NCBI RefSeq assembly: GCF_001984195.1
Contig: NZ_MTQN01000012.1
Coordinates: forward strand, 310,001-374,000
Reading direction: 5' to 3'
From: Kribbella sp. ALI-6-A
GTDB lineage: Bacteria; Actinomycetota; Actinomycetes; Propionibacteriales; Kribbellaceae
Length of the DNA stretch: 64,000 nucleotides
A model generated the notes under the pieces. That model had not been told where the DNA came from and did not search any database. It saw only the letters and a list, made by a program, of their open reading frames with translations. Within the stretch, counting starts at the first letter, position 1. Every line of letters begins with the position of its first letter. The position numbers were made by a program, and so were the translations under genes. Positions 9,186 to 32,080 of this stretch are shown piece after piece.

Positions 9186-9207
9186 CGTGGGATCAAATAT
9201 GGTGCGA
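9186..9207 (+). repeat. Arm-type repeat, left copy
   Basis: CGTGGGATCAAA...GGTGCGA matches the copy at 31921-31942 at 20 of 22 positions and a third copy at 24694. All three lie in the same orientation, two beside the full att sites and one beside a decayed att site. This is what integrase arm-binding sites look like. It also lies just upstream of the integrase start, so it may serve autoregulation. Confidence 0.65.
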
Positions 9208-9225
9208 GCCTCTACAATCGATGCC

Positions 9226-10713
9226 ATGGCAAAGGCTTCGAAGCGGCGTCAGCGTGCGCGCGGCTACGTCGAGGAGCTGCCCAGCGGCGCACTCCGGGTC
9301 GTGGTCTACGCCGGCATCGATCCGGTCACGAAACGCCGTCACTACCTCCGCGAGACCATGCCGGCCAACACGCCGAAGGCTGCCGAGGAGGCCGAGAGAG
9401 CTATCCGGCGGCTGCAGACCCAGGTCGATGAACGGCGGCAACCCCGGACGAACGCGAGCCTGAGCCAACTGATCGAGCGGCATCTGAAAATCGCCGAGCT
9501 AGACGAGACCACTCTGCGGACCTACCGCGGGTACGTCCGCAACCACCTCGATCCGCTCATCGGGCACGTCAAGGTCGGCGCTGTCGACGCCGATGTGCTC
9601 GACTCCTACTACGCCGAACTCCGTCGCTGCCGCCGTCACTGCGACCGACGGCCGTTCATAGAACACCGCACCAAGACCGCTCACGAGTGCGACCACCGAT
9701 GCCGTCCTCATGAGTGCCGGCCACTCGGCGCATCCACCATTCGCCAGATCCACTTCATCCTGAGCGGCGCCTTCCGCCAGGCAGTCCGATGGAAGTGGAT
9801 ATCGGTCAGCCCAATGCCCACCGGCAAGCCCCCATCCGCGCCGAGGCCCAATCCCCGTCCTCCGACGGCCGACGAGGCCGCCCGGATTCTGAACGAGGCC
9901 TTCAACGACCCGGCGTGGGGGACCTTCGTCTGGCTTGCGATGGTCACCGGCGCCCGGCGCGGCGAACTGTGCGGCCTGCGCTGGTCCAAGGTCGAACTCG
10001 ACCAGGGCGCCATCGTCATCGACACCAGCGTGGCCCAAAACAGCGGCAAGAAGTGGCTCAAGGACACCAAGACTCATCAGCACCGCCGCCTGACGCTGGA
10101 CACCGGGACTGTCGCTCTCCTGCGCGAGCACCGGGCGGCCTGCGACGAAACCGCCACCAAACTGAAGACGAAACTCGGGCCTGATGCGTTCGTGTTCTCC
10201 CTTGCTCCAGACAACAGCGAGCACCTCATCCCCGACAGTGTGTCGCAGCGATACAGCAAAATGGCGGCTCGGCTGGACATCGATACCCACCTACACAACC
10301 TTCGCCACTACTCCGCTACGGAACTCATCGCCGCTGGGGTCGACATCCGAACCGTCGCTGGCCGCCTCGGCCATGGAGGCGGGGGCACTACCACGCTTCG
10401 CGTTTACACCGCGTTCGTCTCGGAGGCTGACCAACGAGCCGCTTCGGCGCTTTTCGAGCGTCTCCCGACCCGCCCGCAACCGCTCGGTGGGCGCGAACGG
10501 ATCCTGAGCGACCCGCACGCACCCTACGAGGCGATCGCGGCCAAGCTATGCGCAGCGATCGAGTCCGGCCTGCTGCCGGAAGGCAGCATCCTGCCGACTA
10601 CGAAGCAACTTGCCCAGCAACACGGGGTCTCAGAGGGAACCATCCGGCGCGCTCTCGACCTGTTGCGGGCCTGGAATCGCCTCGACGAATCCCGCCGGCT
10701 AAGGACCACCTGA
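9226..10713 (+). CDS. int: Tyrosine recombinase/integrase fused to a GntR-type winged helix
   Basis: About 495 aa from the ATG at 9226. An N-terminal SAM-like core-binding domain (LDETTLRTYRGYVRNHLDPL) is followed by a Cys/His cluster near residues 135-164 (CRRHC...HECDHRC...HEC), known in actinobacterial tRNA integrases. The catalytic domain shows TGARRGE (Arg near 244), HNLR (H357, R360), LGHGG (H383) and the nucleophile in LRVYTAF (Y394). After the tyrosine, residues 431-487 form a GntR-like helix-turn-helix (LPTTKQLAQQHGVSEGTIRR), an unusual C-terminal extension. It catalyses integration at the tRNA-Lys anticodon loop. Some frames extend upstream to a GTG at 9187. Confidence 0.93.
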   Translation: MAKASKRRQRARGYVEELPSGALRVVVYAGIDPVTKRRHYLRETMPANTPKAAEEAERAIRRLQTQVDERRQPRTNASLSQLIERHLKIAELDETTLRTYRGYVRNHLDPLIGHVKVGAVDADVLDSYYAELRRCRRHCDRRPFIEHRTKTAHECDHRCRPHECRPLGASTIRQIHFILSGAFRQAVRWKWISVSPMPTGKPPSAPRPNPRPPTADEAARILNEAFNDPAWGTFVWLAMVTGARRGELCGLRWSKVELDQGAIVIDTSVAQNSGKKWLKDTKTHQHRRLTLDTGTVALLREHRAACDETATKLKTKLGPDAFVFSLAPDNSEHLIPDSVSQRYSKMAARLDIDTHLHNLRHYSATELIAAGVDIRTVAGRLGHGGGGTTTLRVYTAFVSEADQRAASALFERLPTRPQPLGGRERILSDPHAPYEAIAAKLCAAIESGLLPEGSILPTTKQLAQQHGVSEGTIRRALDLLRAWNRLDESRRLRTT

Positions 10714-11001: not shown

Positions 11002-11991
11002 GTGACGAAGAACGTAAGCTGGGCAGTGGTCGACAACGGTCTAGACTTCTTGGAACGTGCCGTTGGCGAGCTGGCTGAGAGTCCGCCGGACAACAAGTAC
11101 GCGGCGCTTCACCTCTGCAGTGCGATCGAAGTCCTGATCAAGGCGCGCCTCATCCGCGAGCACTGGACACTGGCCTGTTCAAAGCCGGACGGAGCGACTC
11201 AGGCGAGCTTCGCGGCCGGTGATGTGGTGACTGTCGACCCGATGCAAGGTCTGAAGAGGCTTCAGAGCGTCGTCGGCCTGACCATCTCTGGCCAGCAGAC
11301 GAGCAATGTGGACTCAGTCAGGCGTCTGCGGAACAGAGCGGCACACTTCGCATTCGTCCACGAGGATGAGATCGCGGTTCGCACTGTGTTGGGTCGCGGC
11401 CTCGATTTTGCACTGTGGTTCCTTGGCAATCACATCCGCCCAGGTGCGCCCGGCGACGAGGCTGAAGCGATTGACCAGGTCATGGATGACATCACCGGGG
11501 CGCTTACAGCGATCAAGGGTTTCGTCAAGGAGCGTTTAGAGTCGCTTGCCGGCGACCTAGAAGCCGCCGGTGTTCTCCTAGCCTGCCCACGCTGCGAGCA
11601 GGCGACGCTAACGATGCCTGAGGGCGAAGCGCCCAAGTGCCTCTTCTGCTTTTGGGCTTCGATCGGCGAAGGTGGTGCAGACGAGTACGTCTCATCGGTC
11701 CTGAGCTATTCCCATTACCAAGTGATCAAAGACGGGGGCACCTGGCCAGTCCACTCGTGCCTGAACTGCGGTGACCGTGCGTTGGTCCACGGCATCGAGG
11801 TCCTGAAGGACTCCGGCAAGGCCCTGGCCGACCTGCACGACCCATATCTTCCTCCTGTGTTCGGGTGCTTTTCTTGCAGCTATCTCGGCACTCGGCTGGA
11901 CCTCGACGAGTGCGGATCGTGCGGAGAGTTCACCGACTCGGGCATGTCAGTGTGCAGCGACTGCTTTGAGTACGCGGTGTCAGGGGACTGA
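11002..11991 (+). CDS. HEPN-like protein with six CxxC zinc-ribbon pairs
   Basis: A 329-aa protein starting at GTG. The N-terminal helical half contains R110-x4-H115 in RRLRNRAAHF, the RNase signature of HEPN domains, preceded by a long helix with AALHLCSAIEVLIKARL, also HEPN-like. The C-terminal 135 residues carry six CxxC pairs (C195/198, C213/216, C253/256, C289/292, C304/307, C318/321), enough for three zinc ribbons. HEPN proteins in islands usually act as abortive-infection RNases. A plausible model is a zinc-ribbon sensor driving an RNase, but I do not recognise the exact family. It stands alone. Confidence 0.7.
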   Translation: MTKNVSWAVVDNGLDFLERAVGELAESPPDNKYAALHLCSAIEVLIKARLIREHWTLACSKPDGATQASFAAGDVVTVDPMQGLKRLQSVVGLTISGQQTSNVDSVRRLRNRAAHFAFVHEDEIAVRTVLGRGLDFALWFLGNHIRPGAPGDEAEAIDQVMDDITGALTAIKGFVKERLESLAGDLEAAGVLLACPRCEQATLTMPEGEAPKCLFCFWASIGEGGADEYVSSVLSYSHYQVIKDGGTWPVHSCLNCGDRALVHGIEVLKDSGKALADLHDPYLPPVFGCFSCSYLGTRLDLDECGSCGEFTDSGMSVCSDCFEYAVSGD

Positions 11992-12195
11992 CCTTCAATC
12001 GGCATCCCGGTTGAACGTGCGGTAGCGCCCGCGCACCCGCAGCACTCGGGAACGCAATTGGCGTGTCAGGAGCGGCGGAGCACGTTAGATGCACCTGAAC
12101 GTCAGGTGACGAGGTCCGAACCGGCGCGACCTGTCTGAGAGTTTGCGTCAGCACAGGACGGTTGGCGGCGTGGCATCGTGAACGTCGGACTAACG

Positions 12196-12340
12196 AGCGT
12201 CTCATTACGAGGAGGACGCTCAGCGTCGCATCCGCTCTCTACCAGCGCTTTCGTTCACATGGCATCCCGCACGAAGCCCTGGATTCGTCATAGGTCTCCA
12301 GGATTTCGCACCACGACCCGCACATGCGGGATAGCCCACC
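12196..12340 (-). repeat. Dispersed att-like repeat, copy A
   Basis: On the plus strand TCATTACGAGGAGG begins at 12202 and TTTCGCACCACGA at 12304. Read on the minus strand this is an arm motif CGTGGTGCGAAA, about 100 bp of spacer, then CTCGTAATGAGA, the anticodon loop and stem of a tRNA-Thr(CGT). The tRNA part beyond the anticodon stem is degenerate in this copy. A trace of its outer flank (CCGCACATG...TAGCCCACC) recurs at 18194-18217. Confidence 0.7.
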
Positions 12341-12945: not shown

Positions 12946-15900
12946 ATGACGCACGAGACAGCTGCCTCGGCTGAGGACGGATCTCTCGGCTCGGCCGAGG
13001 ACACGTCCCGACATTCTGCGCCGGATGCGGCCCGGTGGGTGGCGACGCTAAATAGCGAGGTCCCACGGACCCAGCACGGACTGCTCGATACGGCGACGCT
13101 GAGCAGCGACTGGTACTCAGGTAGCCGTCCGCGAAGGGCTGAGGACTTGGTCGGCAGCGAGCGGTCTTACGTACTGCTCGCGCCAGGCGGTGCAGGCAAG
13201 ACCACGCTGGTCAGGGACCTACAACGGCGCGAACCCGACAGTACATCGATCGATCTACGCATGCACGGTCGCGAGTCGTTGGTGGAGCAGATCAGGCAGC
13301 TCAGCCGCGATGCTGCCGCCGTATTCATCGACGCCATCGACGAGGCCGTGCAGCTCGACCCGAATATCGGCTACGTGTTGGTCCAGCTTCTCAGCGAGCG
13401 AACGGCGAAGAGGGCGTCGTGGCGACTGGCATGTCGGCCTGGCTTGTGGACGGTTGACCTGGCTGAGGGGCTTCGCGCCGCGCTGCCTGGCTTCCAGGAG
13501 CTGGAACTCCTCCCTCTGGACCTGCACGGCATCGAGGAGATGGCGGGCTCCGACGCTGACGCGTTCCTGACTGCCGTAGCCGACGCTCGTCTGACGCGTC
13601 TGCTTGCCCAGCCTCAACACGCCCGCGCCCTGCTCGACCAGTGGCGTACGACGAGGGAGCTGCCCGCCGGCCGCTCCGAAGCGATGCGCCACACCGTCAG
13701 CAATCTGTTGCTCGAAACTGGTCGATTTCGGCCGCGCAGGGTTCATGACGACAGGCGGATGGCGCTCCTCGCCGAACGCCTGGCGGCGGTGACCATCTTC
13801 TGCGGCGTGGGGCGCTTCGGGCTTGGACAGGTCAACAATCCCTCAGACGGCTCGGCAGACAGCGCACTGCTGCCTGTCACCGCCGTACCCACCGACCACG
13901 AGCCCGACCTCGCCGGACAAATGACCGTTGAGGACCTCCACGAGGTTCTCAACACGACGCTGTTCTCCGCAGCCGGCCAGGGCAGCGTCCGCTTCGCCCA
14001 CCAGTCCTATGCGGAGTTCCTCGCCGCGGCGTACCTTGCTCGCCGAGGCGTCAGTGGACGACGGCTCCTGTCCCTCCTCGGGGCAGACGCTAACGGCCTA
14101 GCGCCCGGCCCGATGATCGAGGTGCTCGGCTGGCTGTTACCGCTCGGCGCGTCTATCCCGGCCGACCTCATCGCAGACAACGCGAAGCAACTATTAAGTA
14201 CAACGGGGCTCGAGTTGGCAGACGACAAGATGCGCCGGCGCGTCGTCGACGCGCTTCTACGTGGTGCCGCCAATGGCTCCATCGACGAGGGCTGGAACCT
14301 CGATACCTCCCCGCTTGCTCATCCCGATATTGGCGATCAAATCCACGAGGCGGTCCAGCGGGCGGCCAACCACTGGGAGATCTTCTGGATCTGTCGCATC
14401 ACCCGGCACTGCAGGGTCAGTGACGCGGCCGATGACCTACTCGCGATCGCATTCAACCTCACTTGGCCCTCCTTCGTACGCGCTGAAGCGGTGGCATCGT
14501 TCGCAGCAGTCGCGGCACCCGTCCGAGTCGACGAACTCGCGCCCCTTCTCTTCCTAAGTTCAGAAGAGGATCCTCAGGACGAGATCCTGGCTGCCGCGTT
14601 GCGGGCACTTCTTACAAGAACTGTGGATCTCGACCGATTGACGGCCGCGCTGAGGCCGCGACGCTCGCCGAGCTACATCGGCAGCTACTCACGCCTACTC
14701 GATGAGCTGCCCTCGCTCTTGGACGCCGATCACGTGCTGCCTGTGCTCAGGTACGCAGTAGGCCGTCGCCCGAACCACAGGGACTACGCGTTCGACCGAC
14801 TGCTCGGTGGCCTGCTGGCGCGAGCGTGGACCATGCATGAACCCTCTATCGCGGCCGAGGTCGGGGGGCTGCTTGGTCAGGAACGACTCGGTGGGCAAGT
14901 GGAGTTCGATCGCGGCGAGCACCCGTGGGAAGTCGACGACAACCCTGACCTGCGTCGCGCCATGGCCGCTGCCATGCTGTCGGTGCACCACAACGCCTTC
15001 ATGGCCGTCTTGGACCTGCGCATCCTCACGCCTCAGGACCTGACATGGCTGATCGACTGGATCCCGAGTGCACCAGCACAGGCGCTGGCTGCGGCCGAAG
15101 TCGTACTGAGGCAACTGGCATGGAACGTCGCCGACCGCGTCACCGCTGACCGAATCCTGACAGTGAGCGAAGACCATCCGGCCTATTCGATCCTGTCGCA
15201 GTTCCAGGGATATCGAGACATCGGCGCTCGACCCGACTGGGGGGTGCGCAGACGGATCAGCGACCACCAACGGCCAGGACCTGAGCGACACCTCGCCGTC
15301 CTGCGGCAGACGTTGAGTCGCGTCCGCGCGCAGCGCGATCAGTGGTGGGAGGCGGCGTTGGCGCTCGCCGGGGACCTCCATGCTGCGGACCCGAAGGCTG
15401 CATTTGGATGGGATCTCACGGAGCGGCCCCTGTGGCCGCTGCTGGACGCTGAGGAACAAGAAGAATTCTGGCAAATCGGGATCGCGTACCTCTCAGCACG
15501 GCAGCCCGAGCCCGGCAGCTGGGCCAGTCGCGACAGGTGGACCTACCAAGAGATTATGCCTGATTGGGCAGCGGTCTACCTCCTAGCCACGCTCGCCGAA
15601 CACCGCCCTGACCTGCTTCGCCGCGTCCCTCAGCGGGTATGGGATTCGTGGGCGGAGACGATCGTGGTGACACCAGCATTCATGAACGAGGAACAGAAGA
15701 AGCGGCGACTCGGAGCGTCGGCACCGCCGCGGGGCCGCGCCGCCCTGTCCGCTGCACTGCGCGACCACGTGCGGACCGCCCCGACAGTAGCGTTTCCGCA
15801 TCACCCCCTCGCTGACTTCACAGATCCCCTCCTGCTAGACGTCGTCGCGGCAATCGCTCGCGACCCCCGGCAGCCATTAGCCCGCCGAGACGCGTCCTTC

Positions 15901-16974
15901 GAGGTACTGGTCGAGCATGCACCAAGCGTCGCATTGGACAATGCTCGCGCGACCAGAGCCGAAGAGCCGGCGCCGGCGGGGGCCATTGAGGCGCTGGCCA
16001 AGCTCGCGCCAGAGGAGCTACTCACCCCGTGGCTCGCAGCTGGGCAACTGGGACCGCTTGAACACCTACGTGAGATAGACCCCATCCAGCTCTCCGATTC
16101 TTCGCTGGCCGCGCTGAGTCGCTTGCTCCTCGACCGACTACCCTTCGCGGGCGATCCGGAACGTGCCGACGACTTCGCCCGAAGCACTCCGGAGTCGGAG
16201 GCCCGTCGGCTGCGCATGAATCTGCTTCAAACGATGGCTCGCCGCGGCATGGCCTCGCATCTGGCATCACTTAGGACGGAGCGGCCAGCAGAAGACCAAG
16301 AGCAAATCAACCACCTGCTGCAACAAGCACGCGCTCACGAGGCTCTATCGCTGTGGCGCCCACTGACACCGGACACGATGATGGCGTTGGTAGCCCGCGG
16401 CGACGCTCGCGTGATCCGCGACAGCGCCGGGCTCATCACGGTACTGCTTGAGCAACTTGATCAGATTCAGCATTACGTTCGCGAACGCGCGGGCTTCCGC
16501 AGTCTTTGGAACGGTGACCCCGGAGCGAATGCCGCTTCGCCCAAGATGGAAGACGACATCTCGGACTGGCTGGCTCAGCAACTCGAACTGCGGTTGACAC
16601 CTCACGTCATCATCGACCGCGAGATTCAGGTCCGTCGCACGGCCGCAAGCGGGGTCGGCACCCGCATCGACATCACCGCGACCTCGGGAGGAATCCAACT
16701 GGGTCGCGTGGTGTTCGAAGCCAAACACGTCCAGAATCGTGACCTGCTCACAGCCATCGACCACCAGCTCATCGGCCGGTACATGCAACCAGCAGACCTC
16801 ACCCACGGAATCTACATCGTCTACTGGACCGCTCCTGCGCTGCGACCCTCCTCCTGGAAGCGCAACCACCCGGATCCGTCGCTACTCGCCGACGAGCTGC
16901 GCACGCAGGCACGTCGTCATGGACCGGATAGATGCGTCGAGGTCTTCGTCCTCGACATCGGTCCACGGCCCTGA
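12946..16974 (+). CDS. Giant STAND-type ATPase with C-terminal PD-(D/E)xK nuclease-like domain
   Basis: A 1342-aa protein. A P-loop ATPase sits near the N-terminus: Walker A APGGAGKTT (79-87) and Walker B VFIDAIDE (126-133). The region from about 330 to 1150 is helix-rich without clear motifs, as expected of a STAND sensor array (RFAHQSYAEFLAAAYLARRG resembles the NACHT-adjacent winged-helix segment). The last 150 residues contain RIDIT (D1242) and FEAKH (E1258, K1260), a PD-(D/E)xK nuclease core. Avs and other STAND immune proteins sense a phage protein and fire an effector. The effector here would be a DNase at the C-terminus, whereas Avs nucleases are N-terminal. Confidence 0.8.
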   Translation: MTHETAASAEDGSLGSAEDTSRHSAPDAARWVATLNSEVPRTQHGLLDTATLSSDWYSGSRPRRAEDLVGSERSYVLLAPGGAGKTTLVRDLQRREPDSTSIDLRMHGRESLVEQIRQLSRDAAAVFIDAIDEAVQLDPNIGYVLVQLLSERTAKRASWRLACRPGLWTVDLAEGLRAALPGFQELELLPLDLHGIEEMAGSDADAFLTAVADARLTRLLAQPQHARALLDQWRTTRELPAGRSEAMRHTVSNLLLETGRFRPRRVHDDRRMALLAERLAAVTIFCGVGRFGLGQVNNPSDGSADSALLPVTAVPTDHEPDLAGQMTVEDLHEVLNTTLFSAAGQGSVRFAHQSYAEFLAAAYLARRGVSGRRLLSLLGADANGLAPGPMIEVLGWLLPLGASIPADLIADNAKQLLSTTGLELADDKMRRRVVDALLRGAANGSIDEGWNLDTSPLAHPDIGDQIHEAVQRAANHWEIFWICRITRHCRVSDAADDLLAIAFNLTWPSFVRAEAVASFAAVAAPVRVDELAPLLFLSSEEDPQDEILAAALRALLTRTVDLDRLTAALRPRRSPSYIGSYSRLLDELPSLLDADHVLPVLRYAVGRRPNHRDYAFDRLLGGLLARAWTMHEPSIAAEVGGLLGQERLGGQVEFDRGEHPWEVDDNPDLRRAMAAAMLSVHHNAFMAVLDLRILTPQDLTWLIDWIPSAPAQALAAAEVVLRQLAWNVADRVTADRILTVSEDHPAYSILSQFQGYRDIGARPDWGVRRRISDHQRPGPERHLAVLRQTLSRVRAQRDQWWEAALALAGDLHAADPKAAFGWDLTERPLWPLLDAEEQEEFWQIGIAYLSARQPEPGSWASRDRWTYQEIMPDWAAVYLLATLAEHRPDLLRRVPQRVWDSWAETIVVTPAFMNEEQKKRRLGASAPPRGRAALSAALRDHVRTAPTVAFPHHPLADFTDPLLLDVVAAIARDPRQPLARRDASFEVLVEHAPSVALDNARATRAEEPAPAGAIEALAKLAPEELLTPWLAAGQLGPLEHLREIDPIQLSDSSLAALSRLLLDRLPFAGDPERADDFARSTPESEARRLRMNLLQTMARRGMASHLASLRTERPAEDQEQINHLLQQARAHEALSLWRPLTPDTMMALVARGDARVIRDSAGLITVLLEQLDQIQHYVRERAGFRSLWNGDPGANAASPKMEDDISDWLAQQLELRLTPHVIIDREIQVRRTAASGVGTRIDITATSGGIQLGRVVFEAKHVQNRDLLTAIDHQLIGRYMQPADLTHGIYIVYWTAPALRPSSWKRNHPDPSLLADELRTQARRHGPDRCVEVFVLDIGPRP

Positions 16975-17060: not shown

Positions 17061-17222
17061 ATGACGCCGCCTGCCGGAATCGGGCCGACGGCCTTGTCAT
17101 TACGAGGAGGAACGACAGGGTCGCATCCGCTCTCTACCAGGGGTTTTTGTTGCGCGGCAGCCCCCACCGGGCGCGGGATCCCCCATAGGTATCCGCCACT
17201 TCGTGCCACGAGTGATGCCACG
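17061..17222 (-). repeat. Dispersed att-like repeat, copy B (best tRNA-Thr remnant)
   Basis: The minus strand reads CTCGTAATGA (anticodon loop with CGT), a variable region, a T stem GTCGG/CCGGC around loop CCCGATT, then AGGCGGC as an acceptor 3' strand. The 5' side of the anticodon stem does not pair, so only a tRNA 3' half is present, as at an attR. The arm-motif equivalent (CGTGGCACGAA, minus) is about 100 bp away at 17200. The plus-strand landmark is TCATTACGAGGAGG at 17097. Confidence 0.75.
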
Positions 17223-17428
17223 CAGGCAGAATCCACAGGCACCAGGGGTTGGACGGATTGATTGGCCGGTCGGAGCTACGAGATCCGGCCGCGGGCCATA
17301 CGTGCGATCTGGCGTCGAGCTGCCTGTGGATAACTCGGCATCAGGCCAGCTAACCGTGACACCAATCCCAATGCCGTACGCCGAAGGCCTCCGCCGGCAC
17401 CTGGCACAGCGCGGGAACGCTAGGCCGG

Positions 17429-18749: not shown

Positions 18750-18754
18750 CGCAG

Positions 18755-19051: not shown

Positions 19052-19881
19052 CTCGACTCCCTTTCAACAGTTGGGACTGTGGACGGGGTCAACCCGAGCG
19101 GCTCTCCGACTCCAACGGGGAGCCGCCCTCTTTACTGCCGGCATCTCCATGCTTGAAGTGCTCACTGGTAGCTTCCGGCTACGTCGACTCTAGAACTGTC
19201 GATGGCCGCCGCCGCGACATCCAACGTGCATCAGCTGTCAGTGTCGTGCTGACACGTGTGTGGTTGGTGCCGATCGATTAGCCACACACCTGTCGCGGCG
19301 AAGATCCTCGATCGCCACCCACGGAGTAAGCACGGAGCCGAGCGGTTCAAGCGTCGGGCGATGGCTCTACCAATCGAATCTGGGCACGCCGGCCAGCGCT
19401 CGATCCGGGTCCACGCGACACGATCCCGCACCTCGCGGCCGATCTGTCGCGCCAACGGCGACAATCGGCACTCAGTGGGGCACTACCCATCGCTCGCAGA
19501 CTGGACCGCGGACCTTCACATTACGAGGAGGATGCTCAGCGTGTTGTGCGCTTCCATGAGGCACTTCTGGTTGCGCGGTCACTGTCACACCGGCGAAGAT
19601 TCTCATGCTTCGTCGCAGTTTGGCACCATGTCCCGCACCACAAGCAGGCCCCGGGCAGCCGCGGCAGGTGCAGGCTTGGTTGACCTACCGACAGCCGGGC
19701 CTGCACTCCGCATGGCAGAGGGCTGTGAATAATTGAGATGTCGGACGGCTGGTTCCAGAGCGCACCGCTGCGAGAGTCACGGACGGCTCGGAGCCTGGCG
19801 GATCACAGCGCAGACGCCAGGCCCACATGCTCTCCTGGACCGCAGGCGCGCCTACGATCCACGGATGGATGCGACAGTGTT
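19052..19881. other. Long stretch without a recognised gene
   Basis: About 830 bp upstream of the membrane-protein operon. It holds the operon promoter region and att-like repeat C. Short open frames exist, but none has family features. The plus-strand frame around 19510-19680 reads HYEEDAQRVVRFHEALLVAR, which matches HYEEDAQRVALFHE in repeat E; I attribute this to the repeat DNA rather than to a gene. Confidence 0.4.
19511..19642 (-). repeat. Dispersed att-like repeat, copy C
   Basis: The plus strand has CACATTACGAGGAGG (from 19517) and TTTGGCACCATG about 100 bp later. The minus strand therefore reads CATGGTGCCAAA (degenerate arm motif), spacer, CTCGTAATGTGAAGGTC (anticodon loop and stem of tRNA-Thr(CGT)). 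The T arm is only loosely recognisable. Confidence 0.65.
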
Positions 19882-20710: not shown

Positions 20711-20740
20711 CCGTGCTCCGTGCGGAGCGGGTCTTCGCAT

Positions 20741-20800
20741 CGGGCCGACGACCTTCTCATACGAGGAGGAACCTCAGCGCTGCATTCGTTCTGGTCGAGC
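20741..20800 (-). repeat. Dispersed att-like repeat, copy D (truncated)
   Basis: The minus strand reads CTCGTA-TGAGAAGGTCGTC, then GGCCCGAT, matching the anticodon-to-T-loop part of copy B but lacking one A. No arm motif is seen at the expected distance of about 100 bp. Confidence 0.65.
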
Positions 20801-20897
20801 ACGACTGCTGAACCCGTCCAGCGCACGGAGACAGAGAGGCTGCACAATCGCATGGCTCAGCACCCATAGTCCGATCCCTGAACGAATACCAGTCCAC

Positions 20898-22277
20898 TCA
20901 AATCCGACGATAGACTGACGGCAAGTACTGAGTTCTCGTCAAGACGAAGCTCGACCATTCGTGATTGCGCGTCGCCCGTATTGCCAATATCTCCGATGAA
21001 ATCCCGGCTTTTATGAGCAGAAGCACGGTTAGCAGCCAGCGCAGCGACTGCTGGATCGCGAGCATTTCGAAAAAGAGCTTCGTCGCATCCTCATCTTCGA
21101 CTGGCAGCCGATGAGCGTACCGGTTGCGGTGCTTAGCGACAACCTTTGTCCAGTTGTCAGTCACGCCAGTCAATCCTGGAAGGATAGTTTCGACCACTTC
21201 GGCTAGGCTGTGCATACGCTTTCGAAATACCGGCTCATCGAGGTACCCGGTCGACTCATGCATAGCAGCGCGAGTTTCAGAGTCAAGTCTATCTTTCAGC
21301 GAACTGATGGCCGGCGGGATCTTCTCAATTTGCTCTGGACTCAGTCGACGCTCATGCGGATGTATGCGGCGATGATATCCCTCAGCAGCGCTTGCCAAGA
21401 CAAGTAGGCGGATCTCCAATGATGGCCCGGTTCTGCCCACCTGGCCCGCAACCAGGGTAGGGATCACATCAAGCGAGACAGAGTTCGCGAGCCATGCCGC
21501 AAGGCCTTGCAGGCGTACATCGGCATAATGCACGACCTGATGTTCGCGCTTTGCCTTCGGCGGCACCGGATGCGGAGTATCTAATAGTGGGTGACACAGA
21601 ATGCTCCACGGAGAATCCGCAGAGGTTCTCAACTGGATACTGACGGACCAACTCTGACTGCCGATTGCGATGGTTGCCAGATCACTCAAAGGTTTCACGA
21701 AGTCCTTCAGTATTCTCTCCAGATTGAGCTGTACTCCATCGAGAACAATCCAGTAATCCTCGCCACCATCCGATGTCTCTTCCAACCGGATTTCGGCATT
21801 ACCACCCAAATGCGGCACCGGACACGGGGGCTCCTCGGCCGTCTTCACTATGATGGGTCTGCGAGTTTCTGGATCCAGACCAGCAATGTATGCTCGCCGC
21901 CAAAAGTCGAAATTCTGAATCCGAACACGGGCGGACACATACTTAGTCTCGGCGTCTACGTGCCCACCGACAAGCGCCCATCTCCCAGTAATGATCTGGG
22001 CGTTCGGATCAAAATTCCGTCCGCTGGTGTATCCCTCGGCAATGGTGATCGCACCGATATCAGGTGCCTCCGCGTGCACGAAAATCTGTTCTTGCTCGGG
22101 GCCGAACGGTAGGTCGACAACCTCAGTCTCGCCTGGCAGGTTCGTCGCCCGTTCTTCGTAGGCTGGGGTGAGCTCGCCATCCACACTGACAGTTGGCCGC
22201 CTCAGTGTTAGATCCACGGATCCGGTCAGCTTGCGGGTGGTATCGGCAACGTTCCAGATCTGCGTTTGACCAGTCAT
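20898..22277 (-). CDS. ApeA-like anti-phage HEPN protein
   Basis: A 459-aa protein. The N-terminal 260 residues are beta-rich with repeated WxV/GxV patterns (ITGRWALVGGHVDAETKYVS), as in the ApeA N-terminal domain. The C-terminal 180 residues are all-helical and contain R384-x4-H389 in HRNRYAHRLP, the HEPN RNase motif. ApeA is an abortive-infection protein that blocks phage growth by HEPN RNase activity. The assignment rests on architecture and the motif, not on alignment. It stands alone between repeats D and E, and its start lies about 145 bp from repeat E. Confidence 0.6.
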   Translation of the reverse strand: MTGQTQIWNVADTTRKLTGSVDLTLRRPTVSVDGELTPAYEERATNLPGETEVVDLPFGPEQEQIFVHAEAPDIGAITIAEGYTSGRNFDPNAQIITGRWALVGGHVDAETKYVSARVRIQNFDFWRRAYIAGLDPETRRPIIVKTAEEPPCPVPHLGGNAEIRLEETSDGGEDYWIVLDGVQLNLERILKDFVKPLSDLATIAIGSQSWSVSIQLRTSADSPWSILCHPLLDTPHPVPPKAKREHQVVHYADVRLQGLAAWLANSVSLDVIPTLVAGQVGRTGPSLEIRLLVLASAAEGYHRRIHPHERRLSPEQIEKIPPAISSLKDRLDSETRAAMHESTGYLDEPVFRKRMHSLAEVVETILPGLTGVTDNWTKVVAKHRNRYAHRLPVEDEDATKLFFEMLAIQQSLRWLLTVLLLIKAGISSEILAIRATRNHEWSSFVLTRTQYLPSVYRRI

Positions 22278-22420: not shown

Positions 22421-22570
22421 ACGTCGACGACCTTCTCATTACGAGGAGGACGCTCAGCGTGTCGCCCTCTTTCATGAGCGTCACCCTCCACGCGGATGTT
22501 CGCCTCACAACCACGGACTCCATAGATCGCTAGGGTTTCGCACCACGATCCGCACCACGGACCCGTAGCC
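22421..22570 (-). repeat. Dispersed att-like repeat, copy E
   Basis: A full-length copy. The plus strand has TCATTACGAGGAGG at 22436 and TTTCGCACCACGA at 22536, the same 100-bp spacing as in copy A. The minus strand reads GGATCGTGGTGCGAAA, then TGACGC at 22482, then CTCGTAATGAGAAGGTCGTC. TGACGC lies about 40 bp before the core, as it does at the true attR (31999 and 32038). Confidence 0.75.
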
Positions 22571-23287: not shown

Positions 23288-24412
23288 ATGGGTAACTGTA
23301 TGTTCTTGCTGGGATCGGACGCCCCAACATTGCGTAACTACATCAGTCAGTCGCTATGGACAACAACCGCCGGCGATCGGATTCGTGGGCGCGTTCCGTA
23401 CATCGATCCTAACGCGACAGACCTAGACGACCTCAACGCCTATATGGAGATCCAGAGCCAGGTCATGGCCTGGCTTGGCGACGCCGACAACTACGTCCCT
23501 CTGCAAGCCGAAGCGCTTGCACGGTCGACCTTGAGTTTTGATGCTGGAGATTCTAGCGAGAAACAGGCAGTCGTTTCGTTGATCGACCGCGCACTATCAG
23601 ACTTGGAACGTGACGGGTTCGCCCTCGCCGCCAGTCCATACAGATTGACCGAACGAGGCGCCACTGCACGGCTCACAGGACTCAGCCCGGCGAGCGCCGC
23701 CCGAGTGAGCGAAGCGGTGGCACTCGGCGCGGACAGTTGGATGCAGGATTTGGCCGGGTTGAGGACGCTGGATCCAGGCATGGCCGCTCAGATCGCACAA
23801 CTGGTCTTTGAGGCGAGCGAGGTCATCCAGCATTCGCTTTGGTTTAGGCGCGAAGCAGGCTCTAGTCAGGCAGGAAAACTGTCGACTATGCTCCGCTTCA
23901 ACTCAGAGTCACGGCATCGGCGAACCGAGTCAGACACATTTGCGGCGGACATTGCATTATTTAGTAGCTGGATTGCTGGCGACAGTTACATGCAACTTGC
24001 GAACAAGGCACCTATCTTCAAAAATGCGAACTCGCTTTTCGGCGGTTCCAACGAGACAAAGCGGACGTCGGATGCTGCCGAATATGTCGGCAAACTTACG
24101 TACCCTGCCGCCTGGGTCTGGTCCGGAGCGGTGATTGTGGGCAAGGAGCATGGCCTCGATATTCCAGCGTTTGTGAAGAGCTCGATCGAGTATGGCGTCC
24201 AAAGCGAAGCGGCCGCTCAGCTCATCACGAGAGGGCATCTGACTCGCGGCGGAGCCGTCTTTGTTGCTCGTGAATGCGGCGACGAGTGGGAGAATGTGTC
24301 AGACCAGATAGGTGACGAAGCGCAATTGGAGTTGTTTAGTTCGGGACTAACCAGCTTGGATTACGAGCGCCTGAGAGACCTCGGCGAACGGTTGCGTCTG
24401 AGCGTGCAGTAA
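23288..24412 (+). CDS. Probable C-terminal fragment of a helicase-like protein
   Basis: A 374-aa protein. The text resembles the accessory C-terminal region of large DEAD/DEAH-box helicases: a winged-helix-like part (QAVVSLIDRALSDLERDGF then YRLTERGATARLTGLSPAS) and a helical tail (IPAFVKSSIEYGVQSEAAA). No P-loop or DEAD motif is present. The ATG at 23288 lacks a clear Shine-Dalgarno. It may be a decayed remnant of a defence helicase that lost its ATPase half at the repeat E junction, or a free-standing protein. Assignment is tentative. Confidence 0.4.
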   Translation: MGNCMFLLGSDAPTLRNYISQSLWTTTAGDRIRGRVPYIDPNATDLDDLNAYMEIQSQVMAWLGDADNYVPLQAEALARSTLSFDAGDSSEKQAVVSLIDRALSDLERDGFALAASPYRLTERGATARLTGLSPASAARVSEAVALGADSWMQDLAGLRTLDPGMAAQIAQLVFEASEVIQHSLWFRREAGSSQAGKLSTMLRFNSESRHRRTESDTFAADIALFSSWIAGDSYMQLANKAPIFKNANSLFGGSNETKRTSDAAEYVGKLTYPAAWVWSGAVIVGKEHGLDIPAFVKSSIEYGVQSEAAAQLITRGHLTRGGAVFVARECGDEWENVSDQIGDEAQLELFSSGLTSLDYERLRDLGERLRLSVQ

Positions 24413-24693: not shown

Positions 24694-24850
24694 CGTGGGA
24701 TCAATCGTGGTACGAAAGGGGTCAACCCAAGTCGGCTGGTGAGGCCGAGAACCGTTCCAGGAGCGGGTTCTGACGCCTGATGAGGCCACTTGATAGGTGT
24801 TCATGGCCCCTTTAAGCCGCAGGGTCTACAACCCGAGTCCGTGGCGGCTC
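24694..24850 (+). other. Decayed internal attachment site (tRNA-Lys type)
   Basis: In the same order and spacing as the right end of the island: CGTGGGATCAA..CGTGGTACGAAA at 24694 (as at 31921), CTGACGCCTG near 24770 (as at 31998), TTGATAGG and GGCCCCTTTAA near 24790-24815 (as at 32018-32044), then CCGCAGGGT...CCGAGTCC...GGCGGC, a degraded version of the tRNA-Lys 3' half. It looks like a fossil attR from an earlier, shorter integration in the same tRNA. Confidence 0.65.
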
Positions 24851-24946: not shown

Positions 24947-25921
24947 TCACTTCCCCCATCGGAACGCTATTCCGTAATTGCCGTGCGGCTGACACTCTTG
25001 AGTGAACGTATGTGAAACGGCGCCGCCCGAGATGGTCAGCATGTGCGGATCACCGGCCCGGGGTAGTGAGCCGTCACGACTCGTCCGATCGTCGTACCAC
25101 CAGCAGGCCGCTGGCACGTCGCGGTCCTCGAATCGGATACGTACGGTCAATCCGTTCACTGGAAGATGGCCGTCCGAAAGTTCGCCCGCAGCGATGCCTA
25201 GATGATCGATCTCTACATTGACATAGTAGTGGTCAAGCAGGGCTGTGTGGTGATTCACTGTTTCCGACGAGAAGTAATGCTTCTCCCCCGCTCGCAAAGG
25301 CCGCGGAAACCGAAGCAGGACCTCCCCCGAGGTATCGACTGCGCGAAGGTCGCGAATTGATTCAATGCTGCAACCCCAGAGTGATCGGAAGCTGAGCCGA
25401 CTTGCACCTTTTGGGGTGAAAGAGCTGGCGGAGATTCGATACCCGGCAACATTATCTGAATAGGCCGTGATGAGGCGCTCGGTTATACGACGATGGACAC
25501 AGCGTTCCTTCATCAAGATGGTGATGACCATCATATTGACGTAGATCGGTTGCGCCCCGGCTGGGAACGGGGTGATACTCAATGATTTAGACGTAGAGGC
25601 GCCTTCGCCGAACGACGCATTATCTGGACTGGCATCCCGTGCGACTCCGCCGTTAGGCGGGAAATCACCACCCGCCGAGGTGGTCGGCGGCCGACGGCGT
25701 TGCCATAATAGGCCGATGACCGAAAGGATCAAGGAGGCAATCCCGACAGACAGAGAATAGGTGCTACTCAATTGATCACGGAGCGATACATCGGCATTCA
25801 GGTACTCCGTCACAGCTTGGGCCACCCCCGATCCAACCCATCGCCATGCAATGCAAATGATCCCGAATATCGCGACGCCAAACAATATCGCCCGCATACG
25901 CCGCGCATGCCTCTCACCCAC
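24947..25921 (-). CDS. Two-helix membrane protein with unknown C-terminal domain
   Basis: A 324-aa protein. Two transmembrane helices lie at the N-terminus (AILFGVAIFGIICIAWRWVG and YSLSVGIASLILSVIGLLW). A low-complexity linker and a roughly 200-residue soluble domain rich in beta patterns follow (LLDHYYVNVEIDHLGIA, LTVRIRFEDRDVPAACWWY). I do not recognise the family. Base use is less GC-biased than in the chromosomal genes, fitting recent transfer. It lies just right of the internal att fossil, so it may be the first cargo of a second element. Confidence 0.65.
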   Translation of the reverse strand: MGERHARRMRAILFGVAIFGIICIAWRWVGSGVAQAVTEYLNADVSLRDQLSSTYSLSVGIASLILSVIGLLWQRRRPPTTSAGGDFPPNGGVARDASPDNASFGEGASTSKSLSITPFPAGAQPIYVNMMVITILMKERCVHRRITERLITAYSDNVAGYRISASSFTPKGASRLSFRSLWGCSIESIRDLRAVDTSGEVLLRFPRPLRAGEKHYFSSETVNHHTALLDHYYVNVEIDHLGIAAGELSDGHLPVNGLTVRIRFEDRDVPAACWWYDDRTSRDGSLPRAGDPHMLTISGGAVSHTFTQECQPHGNYGIAFRWGK

Positions 25922-26687
25922 CTAGCCCCCCCCCGGTCGGCATTTCCATATCAGCCGCAAGTATGCGCCTAGTGTGCCGTACTCGGCGCCATGATGGAAT
26001 CGTCAGTTGGGCTGAAATTCAAGCGTGACCTCCGCTCGCAGCCGCTTCTAAGGTTCCCGCTCAACCATGAGCGCTGCTGGCCGCCGCAAGGGATCGAGCC
26101 GCCGCGCCGACGACGGCCGTAATGAGGTCGCCGCCGTGGTGGCTGGAAGAGAAGGCCGGCTAGTGAGGGCGAGAGTGAGGCCTGCGTCGCCCGCAGAGCA
26201 GAGGTTGGATTGCGCTCCCCTGCACCCGGAAGTGAATGCTGAGGCCGGGCGGCTGGCGGGCCTGTGATGCTTGCCCCGGCCCTGAGCGGTACCGGCATCC
26301 GTAAGGCAGGTCTCTGGCGCGGGACCGACCGCCGACAACCCTTCCCTGGTTCGGCGGGACACCAGTTCGTCTTCGCCAGCTCAGAAATCGACGGGCCCAA
26401 CATCAGTCCCCACGCTCAGGCAGTTCAGCGTGGGAATAAGGAGCAGTCAAACCAAGTCAACTGGAGTCACGACCAGCCGAATGGGATCGGCCTGCTACGC
26501 CTGGAGATGCTCCTGTCGATGCGCTGCGTCGGTTTCCTAATCCGCGCGTCACTGTCCTCGAGTCCTTGTGCCCTCCGTCACTGATGCGCGACACTCGCCC
26601 GCCATGTGATCTGGACTGTGGACGCACGAGTCGCGGCGACGGGACAAGCGGTAGACGCAACGCCGAGCGGGCTCGTAACGTCGTCGC
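25922..26687. other. Long stretch without a recognised gene
   Basis: About 770 bp. An 8-bp perfect hairpin (CCCACGCT at 26409, AGCGTGGG at 26427) stands out, without a U-tract. Open frames are GC-shadow type. No repeat copy is present. Confidence 0.45.
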
Positions 26688-27196: not shown

Positions 27197-30100
27197 TCAG
27201 TTGCCGTAGCCACGTCGGCGGCGCCGGCGATCCCGGTTCTCCTCCTCGAGAACGGCCTCAAGGGCCGTTAGGGCGCGATCACGAAACGCCGCCACCTCAG
27301 GCTTCGAAATATCGAGGCCGTGCACGGCCTCTATCCGTTTCTTGATCCGCTTCTCGAAGCCATCCCCAATGCTCATGGGCATCAAGCCCGTCAGCAGCTC
27401 GCCCTGCTCGCGGTCGCCCAGACCTCCCGCCAGCAGAGCAGTCACTGTCGGAGCCCACGACGGGTCTTGCCATTCGCTCGCGACGGCCGCGAGCGCACGC
27501 TGCTTGGAGGCGGAATCCCCTTGGGCCCACCCGAGCACGGTGTCTGCCCAACCGAGGGTGCCAGCCAACAGGATCGAAATGCACTGGTCGAGGCTGAACC
27601 GGGTCCGTTCGTCCAGTTCGGTCGTGGCGCGGATGGTGTCCAGCTCGGCCGCGAGGGCGAAGGCGAACGGTGCACGTTCCTCAGGAGTCATGCTTTCGAA
27701 CTCATGTTCCCAGGCAATCGGCCACGCATTGATCGGGTTGTCCTCCGCGAGCCATGGCCCGAGCAACGAGGCCAGGGCCTCCGGCTGGTCGCGGGCGATG
27801 AAGGAGACGGCCATGGCGAGGTGGTGATCGGCGTGGAGCGCGGAGTAGTTCTCGCTCTCAGCAACAGCGTCGAGGTAGCGACCGAGACCGGTAACGAGGC
27901 CGAGAACCTGGTCGGAGCTCAGGCTCACCCAGTCGGCAGCGCCATGCGCCATTCTCGTCGCACGTCGGTCCCGGAAGGTCACCCATTGCAAGATCTCTGG
28001 GACGAGCGCGATTGGGCCTGCGGCGGCGAGTTCGACGACGCGATCGAGCTCCTCCGTCGTCGTCTCGCGTGAACGCGCGAGCGCCATCGCCAGCGCGCGT
28101 CCGGCCTGCAGTCTCTCCATCAGGTCTGCGTGCTCGAGAGTGTAGTTCTCTTCGCCGGCTGCGTCGGGACCCACTTCGGTGGAGCTTCGGTCCACGCCGC
28201 CGCCGGGCCGGAGAGCGGCGGCCCCGCGGATCATCCGGCCCGAACGAGCGGCGACGGCACGCGCCCCGGTCGTAACCATGCGACCGAGCAGCCGCCCGCC
28301 GGGCAGGCGGGACATGAGAGCACCAAAGGGACGTGCAGCGCGTCCTAACGCCTCCGTCCTGCGCTCGGCAGGCAGCGGCGACACCGAAGCGGCGGTCTTG
28401 GCCGAGTCGCGTCTGCCCTGGTCGCCGATGACGACGTACTCGTAGATCACCTCGATGAGGCGCGCTCTCCTAACCGGGTCGCCGACGTCGTCGAGGACCA
28501 GGGCGGCGAGCCTGGCCCCCTGGCCGCTTGCGCCGATTCTGAGGAGCCATTCGGTAACACGGTCGGTGTCAGCATCGAGAAGGCCCAGGAGAAGGTCGCG
28601 GACACCGGCGCCGGGAGGGTCCCCGATGAGCCGTTCCAGGCACCATTCGATGTCGCTCTGGGCCACGGTGACACGTCCGACCTCTCGGGCGAACACCTCT
28701 GGGAGCCCATCCCAGTTCTGTTCGCCGAGTAGTCCGGCCTGAAACAACAGCTCCACGCTCTCGACGATCCCCAGCCGGTTCGCCAACACGGTCGCGGCCA
28801 TCTCGTCCCCGCGCACATCAGAACCGTCTTCACGCTCGAGCGGCACCAACATCATCAAGTGGGTGAGCGCCGCGTCGGCTATCGCCCGGGTCGCCAGTGG
28901 GTCACCTCGATTAGCCAACGTCGTCAGGGTGGCGCGGCCCGTCGTACGCAGATGCCACGCCAAGGTTTGGTGACGAGCCCAGAGTGGCAACTCGTCCCAG
29001 TGAGCGGCCAGGGCAGCCGAGACGGGCTTCGCCGCAGCTGCAAGGGCGCGCCGGTGGTACCCGGGGACCGGTCCCCCATCGAAGGGAAGGGACCGTTTCC
29101 CGATCGCCCAGATCTCCCACTGCAGCCGAACGACTCGGTTCACAACGTCCCTCGACGCCTCAGCTCCCAGGTCCATCGTGTCGAGGACGGACGCCGCGAG
29201 CCGAGCGGCATCGGCGAGGTCGCGTGCGGTCGGCTGCCGTGCCGGCATGATGCTCGATGAGAGACTCAGCTCGTCTGCGCTGCTGGGTGTCCCCCACCGC
29301 GCGATCTCTAGTACCGGACTCAAGAGAGGCACGGTGGCGGTCACGACGACGCCGGCGACGTGCGCTCGCTCCGTTGCCTCGGCCGGTTCGGGCGACCGCG
29401 GTGGCTGCGCCGCGCCCGTCTGTTGCTTGAACCAGCGCTCGATCGCCCTCAGGGCACGTTGGCGCCGCTCAAACAGGTCGTTCCAGGTGTCGCCCTGCCG
29501 TGCCGCGACAACAGCTGCGAACCCAGTGACCGGGTCTGGGCCCCGTCCGGGATTCATGGCCGCGAGCAACGCAAGGTCCATCAGGAGTCGTATTGCGCCC
29601 GCGATGTCCTCGGTCACCGCGGCCGTCCGGACAGTCATGTCATTGAGCGCCTGCAGCACGAAGCGTGCCTCGTCGACCTCACGGTCATCCTCGGTCCAGG
29701 ACAACGAGAGCGACGGACGCGGAGGCCACCGTCGCGCTACCTCTACTCGCAGTCGGTCGAGCGTGGCAGGTAATGCACCTGCCACGGGTTCCAGGAGCGC
29801 CACCAGCGCGCGCCAGGTGTCCCCGTCGGCGTCGGCTGGCCACAGCCCGTAGACGCCACGCTCGATCACGCGCACGAACTGCTGCTCGCCGGCGATGCGG
29901 CAGGCTTGACTGAGCACCCCGAGGGCGCGCGCCAGCCAGGTTGTGTCGACGTGGGGACTTGGGTCAGATATCGAGGTGAGCTCGTTGATGCCGAACACGC
30001 CGCGTCGGGACTGGATTGCTGAGCCAGCGGACCTCGACTCAGCGCTGTCGACGGCCGTGGCACCGGTGGCCGCGGCACCGATGGACAACTCGCCGAGACG

Positions 30101-31534
30101 ATTCAGGACGGTGCTCCGATCGATCCGGACGTGCTGGGTGAGGTCCAGCGCCTCGGCGACAAGAACCGGGGCCAAGAGGTCGGGCTTGATCGAGTAGCGG
30201 ACGGTATGTTGGGAATGCTCCTGGACGGTCGCCGTGACAAGGCCGGTGTCGCAAAGACGGTCCAGGAGCTCCTCGACCTCCTGGACTGCTCCGGGGAGGT
30301 GGCGGACGGCGCCGGTGAGCGCGCAGATTTCTCCTCCGCTAGCGGCGGAACCTATGAGTGCCAGCGCCACAGCAGTCGCGCGGGCGGCTGGCGTCTGCAG
30401 CTGCATGAGACGTTGCGTGACGTGGCGGCTCAGGACATCGCGGGCTGATGCAGCTGTGAAGGAATGGTCTCGTAGAGCGACGCTGCAGGCTGTATGGGCG
30501 AGCAGTGGGGAGCCCTCGGACAGGGCGATCACAGCGACGGTGAAGGCATCGTCCTCAATGCCGTGGCCCCTGACGATGGCGACGATGTCAGAGCGGTCCA
30601 GTTCCGACACCAGCACCGACCTCGTCGGCAACGCGCCGATCCCGATGCCGGAAAGGACAGGTTCCCTGCCGTCGGGACGGAGTGTCACAACGATCTTCAC
30701 GTTCGCATACCGGGGATCGCCCAGAAGGGTCGCGATCCCGGACAAGTCGGGGCTCTGGTGGGCATCGTCAACCACGATGACCACTGGCGCATCGACGGGG
30801 ACGCCGGCGAGCGCGGCGACGTCGATGCTGGCTCCGGCCCGGGCAAGAAGGGTGGTCGTCGCGGACCGGCCAGTCGCTTCGACCACCGAGCGGGTCTTCC
30901 CCAGGCCGCCCGCGCCAAGCACGAGCAGTAGTCGTGCGGCCCCAGGCGTGTCGTCGATGATGAACGACACGATCTCGTCGACATGCGTGGCGGTGCCGAC
31001 CATGTCGTCGTCGATTCCTGGGACCGAGACTGCCAGCTGTTCACGGAACGCAGCGGGACCGACGAAGGTCCGCGGCAACCGAGGTCGGACGCCGAGCTCG
31101 AGTTCGGCAATGTGACGCAGCTCATCGGTCTCGAGTGCGACCCTCAGGGTCGAGCGACCGCATATCTCGAGGGAGACCCCGAGTCTCTTCGCCTGGTCGA
31201 TGAACTTGTGGTGGTACCTCTCCGGTGCCGATTGGGTAGTCAGGAAGATGGCCTTCTGCTCGCGCTTGGCCGGGTCCTCCTTCTCAATCTTCTTGAGTTC
31301 CTCGGCGAGCTTCGTCGTCCACCTGGTCTGCAGGGACACGATGACGCGGAGTTCACCTTGATCGGAGAACAGTCGACGCGCGACCAGGTCTCTGCCGGTG
31401 TCACCGGTCGGTGCGGTCAACCGGAGGTAGGGGTGGTCCTTCCTAAAGACGTGAAAGGCCACCCGTTCCAAGACATTGTCATCGGTGAGGGCGACAAGCG
31501 CCTCCTCGACGGAGTTGTATTGACGGTCTGACAC
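27197..31534 (-). CDS. Giant STAND-type ATPase with N-terminal restriction-endonuclease-like domain
   Basis: About 1445 aa from the GTG at 31534; an ATG at 31573 would add 13 residues. Residues 43-72 show GDTGRDLV...VIVSLQTRW, the layout of an Mrr-type nuclease (GxGxD then QxK) but with Arg in place of the lysine, so it may be inactive or binding-only. Walker A GAGGLGKT lies at 207-214 and Walker B VVIVVDDAH at 251-258. About 1100 residues of helical repeats follow. This is the Avs-like order: effector, STAND ATPase, sensor. It lies next to attR, at the far end of the island from the other giant ATPase. Confidence 0.8.
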   Translation of the reverse strand: MSDRQYNSVEEALVALTDDNVLERVAFHVFRKDHPYLRLTAPTGDTGRDLVARRLFSDQGELRVIVSLQTRWTTKLAEELKKIEKEDPAKREQKAIFLTTQSAPERYHHKFIDQAKRLGVSLEICGRSTLRVALETDELRHIAELELGVRPRLPRTFVGPAAFREQLAVSVPGIDDDMVGTATHVDEIVSFIIDDTPGAARLLLVLGAGGLGKTRSVVEATGRSATTTLLARAGASIDVAALAGVPVDAPVVIVVDDAHQSPDLSGIATLLGDPRYANVKIVVTLRPDGREPVLSGIGIGALPTRSVLVSELDRSDIVAIVRGHGIEDDAFTVAVIALSEGSPLLAHTACSVALRDHSFTAASARDVLSRHVTQRLMQLQTPAARATAVALALIGSAASGGEICALTGAVRHLPGAVQEVEELLDRLCDTGLVTATVQEHSQHTVRYSIKPDLLAPVLVAEALDLTQHVRIDRSTVLNRLGELSIGAAATGATAVDSAESRSAGSAIQSRRGVFGINELTSISDPSPHVDTTWLARALGVLSQACRIAGEQQFVRVIERGVYGLWPADADGDTWRALVALLEPVAGALPATLDRLRVEVARRWPPRPSLSLSWTEDDREVDEARFVLQALNDMTVRTAAVTEDIAGAIRLLMDLALLAAMNPGRGPDPVTGFAAVVAARQGDTWNDLFERRQRALRAIERWFKQQTGAAQPPRSPEPAEATERAHVAGVVVTATVPLLSPVLEIARWGTPSSADELSLSSSIMPARQPTARDLADAARLAASVLDTMDLGAEASRDVVNRVVRLQWEIWAIGKRSLPFDGGPVPGYHRRALAAAAKPVSAALAAHWDELPLWARHQTLAWHLRTTGRATLTTLANRGDPLATRAIADAALTHLMMLVPLEREDGSDVRGDEMAATVLANRLGIVESVELLFQAGLLGEQNWDGLPEVFAREVGRVTVAQSDIEWCLERLIGDPPGAGVRDLLLGLLDADTDRVTEWLLRIGASGQGARLAALVLDDVGDPVRRARLIEVIYEYVVIGDQGRRDSAKTAASVSPLPAERRTEALGRAARPFGALMSRLPGGRLLGRMVTTGARAVAARSGRMIRGAAALRPGGGVDRSSTEVGPDAAGEENYTLEHADLMERLQAGRALAMALARSRETTTEELDRVVELAAAGPIALVPEILQWVTFRDRRATRMAHGAADWVSLSSDQVLGLVTGLGRYLDAVAESENYSALHADHHLAMAVSFIARDQPEALASLLGPWLAEDNPINAWPIAWEHEFESMTPEERAPFAFALAAELDTIRATTELDERTRFSLDQCISILLAGTLGWADTVLGWAQGDSASKQRALAAVASEWQDPSWAPTVTALLAGGLGDREQGELLTGLMPMSIGDGFEKRIKKRIEAVHGLDISKPEVAAFRDRALTALEAVLEEENRDRRRRRRGYGN

Positions 31535-31920
31535 AGTGCGATTATCCCCGACGTCGCGAGGGGCGATGGTCATGGCTTCGTGACGAGCCAGGTCGCGTAT
31601 CCGCTCACCGCCACGCAGACTCGTCGCTCGAGGCCCCGATCTCACGTGGTACCCCGCCCGCGCGGGCCAGCATCTCTCTTTTGTGGCCTGGCTGCACCTG
31701 CACACGCACGACTAGACTGAAGCCCTGCAGCTTGGGAGATCCCGAGCGCAGGCGGGGAACCCGTCAGCGGCGAGCTCAACGCAGGCTTCGATCCCGGCCT
31801 GGCGGCCACTATGCGGAGCCTTCCTGCCAGCTCGGCGACGCGTGCAGCCGAAACTCCCGCGCAGACAGCACGCCACACCCGCTCCGGGGACCGTGAGCGC
31901 ACCCAGCTGACGGTTAGTGC

Positions 31921-31943
31921 CGTGGGATCAAACGTGGTGCGAA
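31921..31943 (+). repeat. Arm-type repeat, right copy
   Basis: CGTGGGATCAAACGTGGTGC then GAA, in the same orientation as 9186 and 24694. Its second half, CGTGGTGCGAAA, is identical to a stretch in dispersed repeats A and E on the opposite strand. It lies about 100 bp before the attR core. Confidence 0.7.
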
Positions 31944-32037
31944 ATCGCGTCAAAGGGAGTCAACTAACGAGGCTAGTGTCCCTTCAAACCGGAATGTCTG
32001 ACGCCTGGAGGGGCTGGTTGATAGGGCATCATTGCCC

Positions 32038-32080
32038 CTTTTAATCCGCGGGTTGTGGGTTCGAGTCCCACGGGGCCTAC
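32038..32080 (+). repeat. attR: 43-bp direct repeat at the right end of the island
   Basis: Identical to attL. This is the original chromosomal 3' half of tRNA-Lys, displaced by integration; the sequence to its left (GCATCATTGCCC) cannot form the anticodon stem, so there is no complete tRNA here. Confidence 0.95.

Follow-up and report, generated by a model that had tools for sequence, protein, structure and literature searches.

The window analysed here, which is the whole stretch of 64,000 nucleotides from Kribbella sp. ALI-6-A, contains an integrative island of about 23 kb that starts in a tRNA-Lys(TTT) gene and comprises an integrase, cargo genes and several attachment (att) sites or their relics (Table 1). 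The full-length tRNA-Lys(TTT) gene occurs once per genome in 38 of 38 genomes. Its last 43 bases (9071-9113) are repeated in direct orientation and without a mismatch at 32038-32080 (43/43), and the locus thereby combines an intact tRNA gene, an adjoining integrase and an identical displaced 3' fragment at the far end, as defines a tRNA island. The G+C content is 0.56-0.67 in the island segments and 0.70-0.71 in the flanks. The outer boundary rests on the 43-bp repeat and the G+C content, because a search for the right flank in relatives found no synteny tying it to their tRNA-Lys locus.

Down to E 1e-8 the genome encodes no other integrase of this family, and the P'-arm copy of the arm motif sits just upstream of where the integrase gene probably begins (ATG at about 9229). 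Relatives of this GntR-fused integrase occur in several actinobacterial genera, many with arm repeats at the start of the gene. No Pfam matches to AICE-type replication genes or FtsK-type transfer genes were obtained in the island. The cargo includes, besides defence-like genes, proteins without known families. The 374-aa protein has no homologue at E<=1e-10 in 392 genomes of the order; three genomes of the genus have a homologue of the 324-aa protein (43-45%), and the roughly 20 kb fetched around each of these homologues contain no att site.

Table 1. Features of the island, in window coordinates
Feature	Position	Strand	Evidence or remarks
tRNA-Lys(TTT), single-copy target gene	9040..9113	+	ARAGORN
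P'-arm copy of the arm motif	9186..9207	+	core lies about 110 bp to its left; P' arms of relatives aligned
Tyrosine integrase, GntR-type winged helix at its C-terminus	9187..10713	+	Pfam PF00589 E=8.6e-19, PF00392 E=3.1e-11
DUF3644/HEC-08-like defence candidate	11002..11991	+	PADLOC E=7.5e-28
tRNA-Thr(CGT)-type att relic 1	12185..12323	-	nhmmer D1 112 bits; core CCTCCTCGTAATGAG
Giant NACHT-type ATPase, EruA/HyoA-like antiphage protein	12946..16974	+	NCBIfam NF058535 E=8.1e-56, below curated cut-off
tRNA-Thr(CGT)-type att relic 2	17077..17223	-	121 bits; then recognisable tRNA-Thr 3' half (28/34)
tRNA-Thr(CGT)-type att relic 3	19501..19641	-	78 bits
tRNA-Thr(CGT)-type att relic 4	20739..20862	-	63 bits
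ApeA-like HEPN protein	20898..22277	-	Pfam PF18739 E=3e-13; PADLOC Cas13-ApeA E=7.7e-9
tRNA-Thr(CGT)-type att relic 5	22425..22559	-	79 bits
374-aa protein of no known family, cargo left of the fossil site	23288..24412	+	unmatched in Pfam and NCBIfam
Decayed tRNA-Lys-type right-end att site	24694..24826	+	arm motif 24694-24717, CTGACGCCTG 24770-24779, damaged core from 24810
324-aa protein, N-terminal part with two hydrophobic stretches	24947..25921	-	translation
tRNA-Arg(CCT)-type att relic	26407..26551	+	nhmmer R3 120 bits; family members with intact tRNA-Arg half
Giant nSTAND-type NTPase, weak match	27197..31705	-	Pfam PF25199 E=1.9e-4, below curated cut-off
Intact attR	31921..32080	+	P arm, core CTTTTAATCCGC, perfect 43-bp tRNA-Lys 3' half

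The internal tRNA-Lys-type site

An earlier note on this DNA had proposed that the elements of the right end recur near position 24694 in the same order and spacing, and had named a pairwise alignment of 24690-24850 with 31915-32085 as the check. The alignment bears the proposal out: 24694-24826 matches the right end at 31921-32053 with a score of 91 (local alignment; match 2, mismatch -2), far above dinucleotide shuffles, which gave a mean of 20.2, a standard deviation of 3.3 and a maximum of 42 (n=5000). Elsewhere in the window, once windows overlapping the site or the island's left end are set aside, scores did not exceed 40; the left end, with the tRNA-Lys gene and the integrase-side arm, scored 86 in the same scan. 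Arm motif, CTGACGCCTG, TTGATAGG and core follow one another in the same order at both places, and the distance from arm to core is nearly identical (116 bp from 24694 to 24810, 117 bp from 31921 to 32038).

The arm motif CGTGGGATCAANNNTGGTNCGA occurs, with two mismatches or fewer, exactly three times in the whole 8.1-Mb genome, each time inside the island: at the start of the integrase (9186), at 24694 and at 31921. It is built of two 12-bp direct repeats, GTGGGATCAAAC and GTGGTGCGAAAT at 31922. A profile of right ends of the genus, built from 16 sequences with the 24694 site itself among them, matched this site at E = 3e-23. In the 500-bp flanks on either side of the two Lys sites the likeness ends outside the element, and it is therefore not part of a longer duplication; a long segmental duplication is ruled out, as the flanks are no more alike than shuffles. 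At 24694-24826 the island thus holds a second, worn copy of its right-hand attachment site.

The decayed tRNA-Lys 3' half described for this site holds in part. About its first 16 nt, CTTTAAGCCGCAGGGT, are recognisable as the anticodon loop and 3' stem, but the part corresponding to T-arm and acceptor is at the level of shuffled sequence (score 16; shuffles averaged 13.3 and reached at most 26). The core has changed from CTTTTAATCCGC to CTTTAAGCCGC with the loss of one T, unlike the perfect outer repeat, and of 73 positions at which the tRNA-bearing ends do not vary, 11 are altered. Tyrosine recombinases generally need matching overlap sequences. Because of this need and the damaged core, recombination of the 24694 site with tRNA-Lys is unlikely, and any movement of the island today is most economically read as that of one 23-kb unit. 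Of the traits of a CIME, which is flanked by functional att sites, lacks an integrase and is mobilised in trans, the module at 24.8-32.0 kb shows the missing integrase and an att site on the right; the core of its left site is damaged.

Further att relics within the island

The earlier note had the site at 24694 splitting the island in two. An internal att site does lie there, but at least six more relics of two other tRNA specificities make the island a mosaic of about eight segments. The repeat families D1 to D5 are five minus-strand att sites of the Thr type whose arm repeats are similar to those of the Lys kind (GTGGTGCGGATC and GTGGTGCGAAAC in the relic at 22425-22559) and whose ends read CCTCCTCGTAATGAG, as does the anticodon loop of tRNA-Thr(CGT). 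In a relative, a sister integrase with matching arm repeats at its start uses this tRNA as target; a search of the integrase family found no cognate integrase for the Thr-type relics in the present genome. The Arg-type relic terminates in the loop of tRNA-Arg(CCT). Both kinds are real, because the E values of DNA matches between the window and other genomes fall to 6e-38 (Thr kind) and 2e-21 (Arg kind), the profiles of these kinds having been seeded with the window copies. The relics stand between genes, several of them defence-like. In total there are seven internal sites, that at 24694 included, and one working-looking right end, and these delimit eight segments of 1.1 to 5.4 kb.

Wherever Thr-type sites were found in tRNA-Lys islands of the GntR-fused integrase, they are inverted relative to the integrase; this was seen in the window (12185-22559) and in G005:C12, G016:C22, G036:C318 and G010 (stretches L064, L065, L081, L188, L189).

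Related sites in Kribbella

The profile of Lys-type ends matched in 18 of 38 genomes, and 16-18 right ends of the same architecture could be aligned. Some of the matches have a perfect tRNA half and close islands at tRNA-Lys; others lie away from it, two examples from two genomes being 316 kb and 326 kb distant from tRNA-Lys. The fetched stretches hold 75 sites of the same kinds at a median spacing of 2.9 kb, a density biased by the choice of stretches for containing matches. Neighbouring sites share their orientation in 33 of 37 pairs, pairs within one array not being independent, and this supports serial accretion because accretion predicts it and random insertion does not.

At 6855-7108, the stretch L282 (G015:C3) of a relative has a P arm, core, tRNA-Lys half and P' arm motif, followed by foreign DNA in place of the integrase start, and 7.4 kb further on, at 14301-14755, a P arm, core, tRNA half and broken integrase. 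The accretion history that the earlier interpretation calls for is thus directly visible in the same element family.

Two blocks are 98-99% identical between stretches of different species, one of 5.1 kb (L075:3081-8152 and L076:16397-11327) and one of 4.1 kb (L178:3647-7788 and L182:16690-12550); they lie in att-site regions and indicate recent transfer.

Assembly of the island

We consider the island to be probably a composite of about 23 kb formed by serial accretion of att-bounded modules, with 24694-24826 as a worn right end of the tRNA-Lys integrase family. Lys-, Thr- and Arg-type right ends punctuate it, and there is one integrase and a perfect outer 43-bp repeat. The internal att site is of the same family and orientation as the outer one, as expected of tandem accretion. 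A second integrase, a P' arm or a remnant of either, which tandem accretion would also leave, is absent to the right of 24694 and is found in the relative L282. Accretion that left a fossil internal att site, as put forward in the earlier note, is well supported by the homology to right ends of the genus, the decayed core and the tandem junctions of L282.

An element resident at tRNA-Lys would have received a second element, or a module, on its tRNA-proximal side. The internal integrase and P' arm would then have been deleted, and a change of the internal core from CTTTTAA to CTTTAAG would afterwards have ended the core's agreement with the tRNA overlap. The GntR-fused integrase would now be able to excise or insert only the whole unit of about 23 kb, from 9071 to 32080. 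The Thr- and Arg-type relics may have arrived with modules formed at other tRNA genes, for which the genome has no cognate integrase of the GntR-fused family.

In its stronger form, as two elements at one tRNA, the proposal stands as regards the accretion fossil but not as regards two complete elements, for which a second integrase, a P' arm and a matching relative were all missing. No island among the relatives examined ends or starts at the 24694 point. Two elements, an added module with subsequent deletion of its integrase, and a replaced attR are not separable, because neither a P' arm or integrase remnant nor a relative ending there was found. The order of decay is a difficulty: simple accretion would make the tRNA-proximal element the newest, but of the two right ends it is that element's, at 24694, that has decayed more. 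The two can be reconciled only on the assumption that selection acts on the outer site alone.

That the solitary right ends are instead working sites, and that integrases acting in trans insert circles of one defence gene and one P-arm/core site, themselves without an integrase, into arrays in the manner of cis-mobilizable elements, seems unlikely. Lys and Arg sites without a tRNA half do score as high in the P arm as those with one, five Lys sites without it depart from the invariant positions by 3-8% (1-11% in tRNA-bearing sites), and the modules, of a median 2.9 kb, are short and in most cases without an integrase. The tRNA half is, however, also seen at intermediate decay, Thr-type sites decay by degrees, and the core and sequence at 24694 are damaged. 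Moreover, no pair of contexts was seen to share a cassette whose homology ends at the core, the shared 98% blocks (L075/L076, L178/L182) breaking elsewhere, and genes on the P-arm side have no fixed polarity relative to the site (37/66). An integron-like cassette array was rejected, as neither a shared cassette breaking at the site nor a fixed polarity was found; promoter or cassette polarity was rejected on the unbiased P-arm side. It is likewise doubtful that right-end elements of several tRNA specificities form a working integrase-in-trans cassette system that moves single defence genes between islands throughout the genus. If they did, single defence genes would accumulate in, and travel among, islands at different tRNA genes.

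Replacement of the attR has little probability in our view. An older island would have ended at 24826, and homologous recombination between the right ends of two islands would have added the 7.2 kb with a new right end. Recombining right ends would be expected to give mixed-type arrays mostly in one orientation, as seen in 14 of 17 mixed neighbouring pairs, and the DNA to the right of 24694 is without an integrase remnant. A chimaeric site is known in L072 (17774-17988), in which a tRNA-Lys-type right end runs into the inner half of a tRNA-Thr-type one. Against replacement, no island ending at the 24826 point was found, and right ends are only about 65-80% alike and thus a poor substrate for homologous recombination. 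A role of the 130-150 bp elements unrelated to integration, as a regulatory element or as a small, non-autonomous transposable repeat, is very improbable: although they are dispersed and many lack a tRNA half, they contain the arm motif of the integrase start, end in the anticodon loop of the island-anchoring tRNA, mark island ends with perfect tRNA halves where intact, and give no promoter signal in gene polarity on the P-arm side.

Comparison with known islands

Composite assembly, the history preferred here, is of a general type already known, though not, in the literature searched, with this mixture of site kinds. In Dehalococcoides, islands stand in tandem at one RNA gene, ssrA, with many displaced gene fragments as boundaries; 15 of them have no integration module, and cis-mobilizable elements and accretion were proposed (PMC3146451). 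Displaced RNA-gene fragments as boundaries and integrase-less modules are common to both systems, but Dehalococcoides has a serine recombinase, a single target gene and reductive dehalogenase cargo (PMC3146451), whereas the Kribbella island has a tyrosine integrase, three mixed tRNA specificities and defence-like genes. PAISt of Streptomyces turgidiscabies, likewise an island of an actinobacterium, also has a tyrosine recombinase; between its two outer att sites lies an internal one, proven active in modular excision, and eroded sites occur in relatives (PMC4057263). In Kribbella the putative internal site is decayed, integration targets a tRNA, and the 23-kb island has no recognised transfer genes. 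As far as the account of CIMEs and ICESt1-type tandem accretion in PMC3146451 goes (Pavlovic 2004), the likeness lies in integrase-less att-bounded modules beside an integrase-bearing element, and the difference in the Kribbella modules being separated only by right-end type sites of several specificities. Some actinomycete ICEs, too, are integrated in tandem by tyrosine integrases, at tRNA-Lys or tRNA-Arg (PMC3218068), but no replication or transfer genes were recognised in the Kribbella island.

Three tRNA specificities mixed within a single defence island, and arrays consisting of right ends only, had no precedent in a small sample of open-access literature, judged mostly by title and abstract. 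Antiviral genes cluster in defence islands; to our knowledge, how these genes come together has mostly gone unseen. Here the scars are readable: every Lys-, Thr- or Arg-type right end would mark the former end of a mobile unit, and therefore the order of assembly and the routes between tRNA loci could be traced. The att sites could also serve to locate module boundaries and candidate new defence genes.

Additional observations

Weaker sites at L177:8049-8177, L077:2242-2367 and L067:5429-5553 have cores that resemble the anticodon loops of tRNA-Met(CAT) and tRNA-Arg(TCT), and specificities beyond Lys, Thr and Arg therefore probably exist. Tandem repeats about 85% alike adjoin tRNA-Thr-type sites at L077:14556-16146. 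On the core side of the sites, genes have a weak bias of polarity towards the site (44/67, p=0.014, uncorrected). Within the island, the stretch 17371-18097 has similar counterparts (69-77%) in about 20 Kribbella genomes and in the window itself at about 42412-42891, and is perhaps a chromosomal gene fragment carried in a module.
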